A stretch of DNA of 64,000 bases, taken from the NCBI GenBank assembly GCA_014360495.1, contig JACIXR010000010.1, positions 1-64,000 on the forward strand. The letters are read 5' to 3'. Positions 53,801 to 61,766 of this stretch are shown here, piece after piece. The number at the start of each line of letters is the position of its first letter. Position 1 is the stretch's first letter. The translations under genes and the position numbers were made by a program. A model generated the notes under the pieces. It worked only from the letters and a program-made list of their open reading frames with translations. It made no database searches and was not told the origin of the DNA. Origin of the DNA: a bacterium (GTDB taxonomy: Bacteria; Armatimonadota; JACIXR01).

Positions 53801-54292
53801 TTAAAGAATTTTAACGGGAAGCTTTATCACTTTTTGCTCTTTCTCTAGCCTCTCAATCTCCTCAAAGGGAGAGGAGCCGTCGGGAAGGAGGATGTTAGGA
53901 GCGATTTCTTGGAGAGGTAAAAGGGCGAAGAGGCGTTCCTTTAGATGGGGATGAGGAATGATGAGAGAGGGATGGGAAAAGGAGATATCGTCGTAAATCA
54001 GGATATCTATGTCTATGTTGCGCGGACCCCAGCGGAATGTCGGCTTGCGTCCCATTCTCCTCTCTATGTCTTTTATGAGTTCCAGTAATTCCAGAGGCGA
54101 AAGGTCAGTCTCCACCTCAAGAGCCAGATTAAGGAAATCCTCCTGCTGCTCATACCCCCAAGGAGAAGATTCATAAATTGAGGAAATCTTTCCAATCCGA
54201 ATTCCTTCCTCCGTAAGAAGGCTTATAGCCCTCCTCAGGTTTCCCAGTTTATCTCCTTGGTTTGAGCCGAGGAGGAGGTAAACTATGGCTAT
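53801..54292 (-). CDS. folK: HPPK (folate pathway) with an AUA start codon
   Basis: A 163-residue 6-hydroxymethyl-7,8-dihydropterin pyrophosphokinase. Reading from ATA at 54292 gives (M)AIVYLLLGSNQGDKLGNL, the canonical HPPK N-terminus. The ATP and pterin motifs SSIYESSPWGY, FRWGPRNIDIDILIYD and PHPHLKERLFALLPL follow in order, and the length is exactly that of the family. No ATG, GTG or TTG lies between the in-frame stop at the previous codons and this point. The first conventional start (GTG 54115) would remove the ATP site. The ATA overlaps the TAG stop of the ROK kinase (ATAG), like the common ATGA coupling, with GGAG upstream. Confidence 0.85.
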   Translation of the reverse strand: MAIVYLLLGSNQGDKLGNLRRAISLLTEEGIRIGKISSIYESSPWGYEQQEDFLNLALEVETDLSPLELLELIKDIERRMGRKPTFRWGPRNIDIDILIYDDISFSHPSLIIPHPHLKERLFALLPLQEIAPNILLPDGSSPFEEIERLEKEQKVIKLPVKIL

Positions 54293-55254
54293 GCCTCTTC
54301 TCCCAACCTTTCTCTAGCGAAGGCAACTGCTCCCATGACGCCAGCGTCATCGCCAAGTGCTGCTGGCAATATCTTGCACGGACCCCAAGAAGCCGATAAT
54401 CCCCTTGCCTTCACTGTTCTCTCTATCGCTCCGAATAGAAGTTCTCCCGCCTGTGCAATGCGACCGCCAATTATGAAGACCTCTGGATTAAAGATATTTA
54501 TAAGGTTAGCTACCCCGATGCCAACCCAATAACCCGTTTCCTCAATTACCTCTTTCGCTACCTCGTCTCCCTTGTAAGCCTCGTTCGCGATTATCTCGGG
54601 GTTTAGCTCACGCCAATTGTATTTAACAATCTCGGAAAGGGAAGATTTCCTTCCCTCCTGCAATTTTAAAACTGCTCTCCTTACTATGGCATCTCTTCCC
54701 GCCAAAGCTTCCCAGCACCCGTGATTTCCGCAGCCACAGCGAGGACCATTGGGCAATATCGTCATATGCCCCACCTCTGCGAACATCTCCGTTGCACCCA
54801 GCATAAGCTTTCCATCAAGCACTGCCCCTCCTCCTATCCCTGTTCCCAGAGTTATCATAACTACCCACTTATAACCCTTGCCGGCGCCATATTTCCATTC
54901 GCCAAGCGTAGCCAGGTTTACATCGTTTCCCAAAAACATCGGAACGGGAAATTCTTCCTGCAAGGATGAAATGACGGGGACATTCTCCCAGCCGAAGTTA
55001 GGGGAGAAGATACAGATGCCCGCCTTGGAGTCGTGTTGACCCGCCATAGCTATTCCAACCGCCCTTATATCTTCCCTCTTAGCTCTTGCCCGAGAGATTG
55101 CTTCCAGAAAGGAGTCAATTATCTGCCCTAATACCACTTTCGCTCCCTTTTCCATAAGGGCGCGCATCTTCGCTTCTCCAAGAATCCGCCCGTTCTCATC
55201 AACTACAGCTGAGCGGATATTCGTTCCTCCTACATCGCAGCCGATATAAAGCAT
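54289..55254 (-). CDS. ROK family sugar kinase (glucokinase-like)
   Basis: A 321-residue cytoplasmic sugar kinase. The N-terminal ATP site is GCDVGGTNIRSAVVD; the sugar site FLGNDVNLATLGEWKYGAGK is near 107; LGTGIGGGAVLDG and GHMTILPNGPRCGCGNHGC near 160-180 hold the zinc-binding CGCGxxGC of ROK proteins. The EALAGRDAI segment completes the signature. Glucose is the likeliest substrate, but N-acetyl sugars or allose cannot be excluded. AAAGGAGG precedes the ATG. It is followed by folK with a 4-base overlap, an unusual pairing that probably reflects simple co-transcription. Confidence 0.93.
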   Translation of the reverse strand: MLYIGCDVGGTNIRSAVVDENGRILGEAKMRALMEKGAKVVLGQIIDSFLEAISRARAKREDIRAVGIAMAGQHDSKAGICIFSPNFGWENVPVISSLQEEFPVPMFLGNDVNLATLGEWKYGAGKGYKWVVMITLGTGIGGGAVLDGKLMLGATEMFAEVGHMTILPNGPRCGCGNHGCWEALAGRDAIVRRAVLKLQEGRKSSLSEIVKYNWRELNPEIIANEAYKGDEVAKEVIEETGYWVGIGVANLINIFNPEVFIIGGRIAQAGELLFGAIERTVKARGLSASWGPCKILPAALGDDAGVMGAVAFARERLGEEA

Positions 55255-60044: not shown

Positions 60045-61766
60045 TCATCTTTGAGGAGGATAGGATAGCTCGGAGAAGGAGGTGGGGTCGATATAGGGGA
60101 AGAGTCGGTCCCTCTCCTCACAATAAACAAGATATTGCCAAGCTGAAGGCTCGGGTTCGTCTCCATTTAATATCTCCTTCAACATTTGGGAAAGGCGGAG
60201 GAAGGAATTGTAATGTTCTGCAACCCGCATCTCCGCATAATCCCTCGCAGACCAAGTAGAGATCAAGAATTGCCAGTCTGATGCTTGAAGGAGGAGAAGC
60301 TCCCTTGCCATCTGGGAGAGGATACGATTAGCCCTTTCATCTTTGCCCCATCCTCTTCTCACCAATTCCCTCATCTCCAATTCCGCCTGATAAATATATC
60401 GCCAAGTCCATTCAGTCCACTCGTTCAGCCATATCCAATGGAAGCCTCCTTCTCCCCAGGAACCCTCTGGAAGGGAAACAATTGTATCCGCGGGATTTCG
60501 CTCCAAATAATCGCCGCAAGTTATCATCTCTATCTCCTCATCCTCTGCTATCCTCTCTATAACCCTCTTGAGAAATCTCGGCCCCTCAAACCACCAATGT
60601 CCGAACAGCTCCGTGTCATAAGGAGCGACAATTATCCCCTCCCGCCCCGTCTCCGCTTTGAATTCGCTCAGGACTTTCTTCAACAGGGTGAGGAAATGGC
60701 GGGAATGTTCCTCCACTCTCTCATCTGCCTTTTCGGGAATGTATATCTCTTTTGCACCCAAGTCAGCCTTTGGATTGGTTACCCGCCAGAAACGAAGCCC
60801 GCTTGGGAAGTGCTTCTTATGAAAATCAAGATAATAGCTATCGCCGGGATAACCCACCTCACCACTCCAAACTTGTAGACCCGTTTGGGGGTCTCGAACG
60901 AAAACGGCAACGGGTCTTTTGGGTTCTCCCGAGGAGTTCACGAGATAGGGACGATAGGGTTGTTTTTGTATATCCTCCGGTCTCTCCACTTTCTCCACCC
61001 TTTCCCAAAGGGTTTTCAGAGCCTCAAATCTCTCAAGATAAACCCCTGTAACTTTCCCTCCCCTTAAAAGGTGTGTATCTATGATGAAATATTGCAATCC
61101 TTCCTCACTCAGGAATTCATCAACGCCTTTTCTCAGGTAGCTGTAATCAATGATGGGGGCTTTCCATTCGTAGCGAGGTCTATATGCACATTCCGGTAGC
61201 CACATACCTCTTGGCTGGCGATGAAAATGTTTCTGATAGGCGGAAACACCCAATCTCACCTGCGTCTGAACGCTTTCATCCAAGAGAAGAAGAGGGAGAT
61301 AGCCGTGGGTTGCTGCGGAGGTCATTACTTCTATCTGACCGCCATCCTGTAGAGCTCTCAATTCACCAATCAAGTCCTCTCTTAGCTCTTCCTCAAATTT
61401 TTCCAATGTAGCGGTGTAAAAATTCTCCCACATCTTAGCGAGTTTAGCTATTTCTCGTTCCCCTCGCTTTCTCCATTCCTTCTCTGCCTCGTGGCTTAGC
61501 TCTATCTTATTTTTAAGATAGCCCCTGAGTTCGCTTGGGAAGAAGGGGTCGGAGAGCTGTTCGCAGGTTACCGGTGTGATGCTGAAGGTAACTTTCGGGG
61601 GAATCCCTTTCTCCGCGAGTTGACGGAAGATGTTTATGAGGGGAATATAACATTCAACCGTCGCTTCCGAAAGCCAATCCATTCCGTGAGGCCATCTGCC
61701 ATGGGAAAGAACATAAGGGATATGAGTGTGCAGTACTATGGCGAAATAGCCAATAGTTTTTTTCAG
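60045..61766 (-). CDS. GH57 1,4-alpha-glucan branching enzyme, CTG start
   Basis: A 573-residue cytoplasmic enzyme. Starting at CTG 61766 gives KKTIGYFAIVLHTHIPYVL, the invariant first region of GH57 branching enzymes (His13, His15). The first conventional start, ATG 61682, would delete this catalytic strand. Glu192 in WLPECAY is the nucleophile and Asp384 in APYDTELFGHWW the acid/base; a C-terminal helical domain follows. The enzyme makes alpha-1,6 branches in glycogen-like glucan. AGAGAGGTG lies 8 bases before the CTG and an in-frame TGA lies three codons upstream, leaving CTG as the best start. It precedes the nucleotidyltransferase fusion in the same operon. Confidence 0.88.
   Translation of the reverse strand: MKKTIGYFAIVLHTHIPYVLSHGRWPHGMDWLSEATVECYIPLINIFRQLAEKGIPPKVTFSITPVTCEQLSDPFFPSELRGYLKNKIELSHEAEKEWRKRGEREIAKLAKMWENFYTATLEKFEEELREDLIGELRALQDGGQIEVMTSAATHGYLPLLLLDESVQTQVRLGVSAYQKHFHRQPRGMWLPECAYRPRYEWKAPIIDYSYLRKGVDEFLSEEGLQYFIIDTHLLRGGKVTGVYLERFEALKTLWERVEKVERPEDIQKQPYRPYLVNSSGEPKRPVAVFVRDPQTGLQVWSGEVGYPGDSYYLDFHKKHFPSGLRFWRVTNPKADLGAKEIYIPEKADERVEEHSRHFLTLLKKVLSEFKAETGREGIIVAPYDTELFGHWWFEGPRFLKRVIERIAEDEEIEMITCGDYLERNPADTIVSLPEGSWGEGGFHWIWLNEWTEWTWRYIYQAELEMRELVRRGWGKDERANRILSQMARELLLLQASDWQFLISTWSARDYAEMRVAEHYNSFLRLSQMLKEILNGDEPEPSAWQYLVYCEERDRLFPYIDPTSFSELSYPPQR

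Follow-up and report, generated by a model that had tools for sequence, protein, structure and literature searches.

The window, by which we mean the whole 64,000-nucleotide stretch of DNA analysed, carries on its minus strand a gene of the folK (HPPK) type lying directly behind a sugar kinase cistron. The first-pass annotation had singled out this junction (54283-54300), proposing that folK has no canonical start codon and begins at an ATA overlapping the kinase stop. Below, G000 denotes the genome of the window, and G001 and G002 the two congeners at hand, the three species being about equally distant from one another. The elements of the locus are:

53801..54292, minus strand: folK (HPPK) coding sequence, ATA to TAA, 163 codons plus stop, supported by family models and dN/dS
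54113..54115, minus strand: GTG, the first canonical in-frame folK start, deep inside the HPPK domain (frame reading)
54265..54308, minus strand: predicted hairpin pairing the Shine-Dalgarno (SD)-like stretch with folK leucine codons 6-8, with the ATA in its interior
54289..54292, minus strand: ATAG, the 4-nt overlap of folK ATA and kinase TAG, read from the sequence and identical in G002
54289..55254, minus strand: ROK-family sugar kinase (glucokinase-like), 321 aa, the cistron upstream of folK (Pfam ROK, 240 bits)
54290..54292, minus strand: ATA, putative start codon of folK, at the Met position of PRK10239 and the modal -8 position from GSN, in a column shared by G000, G001 and G002
54300..54304, minus strand: GGGAG, SD-like stretch 7 nt before the folK ATA, read from the sequence against the 16S 3' end CACCTCCTTTCT
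54307..54313, minus strand: AGAAAGG, a second purine stretch able to pair with the 16S tail, farther upstream of the ATA
54314..54316, minus strand: in-frame TAG stop upstream of the folK ATA, read from the sequence

Read along the minus strand, the frame of folK is TAG(54316-54314) AGA AAG GTT GGG AGA AGA GGC ATA(54292-54290) GCC ATA GTT TAC CTC CTC CTC GGC TCA AAC, and neither ATG nor GTG nor TTG occurs in it between the TAG and the GTG at 54115; the earlier statement that canonical codons are missing from the ATA back to a stop eight codons upstream was correct. This GTG is situated 59 codons into the HPPK domain, and a protein started from it would be a 104-aa fragment devoid of the GSN motif. 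A coding-signal scan of the 99-kb contig returned folK as a clear outlier (score +10.9 for the 66 codons ahead of the first canonical start), the runner-up reaching +6.2 over 22 codons.

The family match of the product is clear, arguing for an intact, functional HPPK gene with a predicted pyrophosphokinase activity: the protein scores 147 bits with the TIGR01498 folK model (cut-off 54) and 135 bits with Pfam HPPK PF01288 (cut-off 25.7), finds related solved structures with matches down to E = 2e-34, and possesses both the N-terminal GSN motif (YLLLGSN) and the RWGPR-x-ID-x-D signature (RWGPRNIDIDIL). Compared with the FolK family as represented by TIGR01498 and PF01288, it is a full-length match including the catalytic motif, and the start codon is the sole difference. 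Since position 2 of the PRK10239 model (E. coli-type FolK) aligns with the residue just after the ATA, this triplet occupies the Met position of FolK. Across the three congeneric species dN of folK is about 0.2, while dS is 1.4-2.5 or saturated, and such a ratio at near-saturated synonymous sites places the gene under selection. One could suppose that folK is decaying or is translated from the internal GTG 54115, which standard gene callers would indeed pick, but purifying selection is strong and includes the N-terminal GSN part, RWGPRNIDID is intact in a frame free of stops, and the gene is the only HPPK match in the genome, so that we regard this explanation as scarcely credible.

Comparison with the congeners bears directly on the start codon. 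Nucleotide identity of folK among the species is about 69% with synonymous sites near saturation, and the 99-kb contig shows little synteny with the 191 kb of G001 against which its orthologs were compared. In G002 the junction reads GAA GAA AAA TAG / ATA GCC ACT GCT TAT, reproducing the ATAG overlap of the window, and its folK offers neither a canonical start ahead of GSN nor any other plausible one. In G001 it reads GGA GAG TGA / GTG AAA ATA GAA GTA GCT TAC, i.e. a GTGA overlap with GTG two codons upstream of the ATA, and folK of this species may not use the ATA column. The ATA is nevertheless found at the identical folK codon column in all three genomes, although in two of the species only one of its bases is free of kinase constraint, TA belonging to the kinase TAG. 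A wider sample of 70 HPPK homologue loci (29 from the genus or phylum and 41 from other bacteria) contains a canonical in-frame codon before or at the conserved N-terminus in 69 cases, G001 included, with G002 as the sole exception; starts in this sample often lie 7-10 codons before GSN, and the commonest position, -8, is that of the window ATA. The proposed AUA start is supported by these relatives, neither G001 nor G002 having ATG at the position. As the window is taken from a draft assembly, single-base errors can occur in it, and a true ATG might accordingly have been misread. Such a sequencing or assembly error is nonetheless very unlikely, because the independently assembled and so distant G002 (69% identity) has the same ATAG overlap; besides, ATG would abolish the kinase stop of G000 as well as that of G002, extending the kinase in each case, and ftsY and infC (see below) show the same type of start in three assemblies.

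The kinase, whose score with the TIGR00744 ROK glucokinase model (230 bits) is under the cut-off of that model (260), ends with GGA GAA GAG GCA TAG(54291-54289), and the minus-strand sequence confirms the reported fusion of folK ATA and kinase stop into ATAG. It also bears out the prediction that one substitution would link both genes: with ATG in place of ATA the kinase TAG becomes TGG, so that its frame runs on as TGG CCA TAG and gains two codons (Trp-Pro). Surveys give -4 stop-start overlaps as ATGA/GTGA (NTGA) and associate them with translational coupling (PMC6728339, PMC10666635, PMC12548453). The kinase/folK pair is like them in the four-base overlap and the -1 frame and unlike them in having a TAG stop and an ATA start, so that by its letters (ATAG) it stays outside the NTGA class, though its geometry is the same. 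As ATAG is the only -4 overlap open to a TAG stop, this arrangement requires an AUA start; by analogy with ATGA, coupling of kinase and folK through the 4-nt overlap is plausible. The same geometry, in which the folK and kinase frames overlap with folK offset by -1, would allow ribosomes to shift by -1 near the kinase end and to produce a kinase-FolK fusion needing no start codon, and G002 has before its stop an AAA where a tRNA could slip. Yet the window reads GAG GCA TAG without a slippery heptamer, the end of the G001 kinase differs (GAG TGA) and its folK has a GTG of its own, leaving the shift site unconserved, and the ATA falls exactly at the start position of the HPPK family; we consider frameshifting highly improbable.

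Upstream of the ATA, the GGGAG of the window has AGGAG as its counterpart in both congeners, likewise at a distance of 7 nt, GGAG being common to all three species; conservation of this stretch is not independent evidence, because the conserved kinase residues Leu-Gly-Glu are encoded there. In G001 the stretch precedes the GTG by only 1 nt, and with this spacing GGAG is too close to serve that codon as a normal SD. The equal SD distance also helps in weighing the other near-cognate codons around, first of all the second ATA (54286-54284), which is in frame and two codons away from the first: its place is taken by GTA in G001 and by ACT in G002, while the first ATA is kept in all three species at the same distance from the SD-like stretch, making initiation at such a neighbour highly improbable. 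A hairpin similar to that of the window is predicted in all three species and would keep the SD-like stretch masked for as long as the kinase goes untranslated. The idea that this structure was selected had to be rejected: its stability stays within the expectation from synonymous shuffling (MFE fractions 0.35, 0.10 and 0.32), and since the amino-acid sequences alone yield comparable hairpins, it is no evidence of selection.

We also considered whether AUA might be decoded in a special way. Among the 46 tRNA genes found, three have CAU, one of them being a normal initiator (L114, with the C1 mismatch and the GGG/CCC anticodon stem), and no tRNA with UAU anticodon is present. A dedicated initiator tRNA for AUA was thus not found in this set, its sole initiator having CAU. 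Genome-wide reading of AUA as Met is excluded as well: ATA codons inside genes align mostly with Ile/Val/Leu, and the genetic code is therefore ordinary.

Taken together, we estimate at roughly 0.87 the probability, judged from sequence comparison, that folK translation starts at the AUA 54292-54290, by initiation or reinitiation aided by ribosomes terminating on the kinase and at reduced yield. Termination-reinitiation or initiation at the overlapping ATAG appears the most likely route. A ribosome ending the kinase at the overlapping UAG would restart on the folK AUA; alternatively, entry would be made by a 30S subunit guided by GGGAG 7 nt upstream. The ordinary CAU initiator fMet-tRNA would read AUA via a third-position mismatch, presumably as it does in S. 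aureus. The ATAG overlap would ensure tight coupling, and the poor start codon would hold the yield of FolK below that of the kinase. We infer from this arrangement that AUA is actually used, that reinitiation delivers the ribosomes and that less FolK is made, and a regulatory role of the AUA start is suggested in the same way. Control of folK by IF3, or a loop between folate and formylation, is a matter of speculation; if true, FolK would close a loop, as the initiator tRNA owes its formyl group to folate.

AUA starts as such are already known: S. aureus uses this codon to start infC, ccpN and citZ, with reporter yields of about 10-30% of AUG (PMC13009471). Like folK, these genes, cvfC1 of the same species (AUU) and infC of E. 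coli (AUU) combine a conserved AUU or AUA start with a functional gene. Initiation of S. aureus infC, ccpN and cvfC1 is predicted to be guided by an extended SD, whereas the SD pairing of folK is moderate (GGGAG/AGGAG, 7 nt) and its codon overlaps an upstream stop. What is new here is the -4 overlap based on TAG and the recurrence of AUA within one lineage.

The latter became apparent outside folK. The ftsY gene (L120, G000 C1, ORF 86167-87084, plus strand; L121 in G002; L122 in G001) is devoid of a canonical start in 3/3 species and exhibits a conserved AGGAGG-9 nt-ATA followed by (R/K)GIFARIREIL, its SD being strong in comparison with that of folK; in G001 an in-frame TAA stands two codons ahead of the ATA. 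Within the genus, no AUA start is likely to be better conserved than this one. Likewise, infC (L077 in G000, L075 in G001, L076 in G002) lacks a canonical start at the conserved N-terminus; the codon there is AUU in G000 and AUA in the two congeners, and GGAGG precedes it by 10-11 nt. In the gene just downstream of efp (L126, G000 C2:72101; L127 in G002; L128 in G001) the start column holds ATA in G000 and G002 and ATG in G001. The ftsY and efp-downstream cases were traced from a 460-kb scan for coding signal ahead of the first canonical codon. Surveying 182 ortholog pairs for SDs regardless of the codon added no further AUA case, and folK turned up again in a separate list of ortholog pairs without an early canonical start. 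By a rough count from partial sequence, supported AUA starts (folK, ftsY and the efp-downstream gene) make up ~0.5% of 653 coding-scored ORFs of G000. Among 61,358 ancestral AUG starts in 36 prokaryote groups, one replacement by AUU was recorded and a replacement by AUA is not listed (PMC5622118), a count not strictly comparable with our ~0.5%, because annotation pipelines may hide such starts; AUA starts seem commoner in this lineage than is usual. A broader reading would make AUA a minor but recurrent start of the lineage (~0.5% of sampled genes, with AUU and CUG besides), folK, ftsY and infC being set by the stringency of initiation imposed by IF3; we hold this to be unlikely, albeit by no means negligible. 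A habit of AUA starts throughout the folate pathway is ruled out: folE and folP, found in the G000, G001 and G002 genomes, overlap one another by an ordinary ATGA and have canonical starts. FolB was not found at Pfam level in the three whole genomes.

Because of their great rarity, AUA starts are usually passed over by annotation pipelines, and folK would here shrink to 104 aa. Persistence of the codon, in folK despite saturated synonymous divergence and also in ftsY of 3/3 species, argues that some lineages tolerate poor starts or select for them. The ATAG overlap indicates that a TAG stop can also build the usual NTGA coupling geometry, and the folK junction offers a target for asking whether reinitiating ribosomes are less strict on the start codon.

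Several further genes with unusual start regions were met in passing. An ORF of G001 (C8 285922-287175, plus strand) has ACG (TEKLAIEGGPKV) behind an SD-like stretch and no canonical start in range. A gene assigned by eye as RecN-like (G000 C2, about 262446-264135, plus strand) has only CTG left in frame, with a one-base difference directly after the TTG seen in G001, reflecting either a natural CUG start or an assembly error. Within the window, a GH57 branching-enzyme-like gene (60045-61766, minus strand) lacks a canonical start for 30 codons and carries CTG (61766-61764) at a site occupied by TTG in both congeners.
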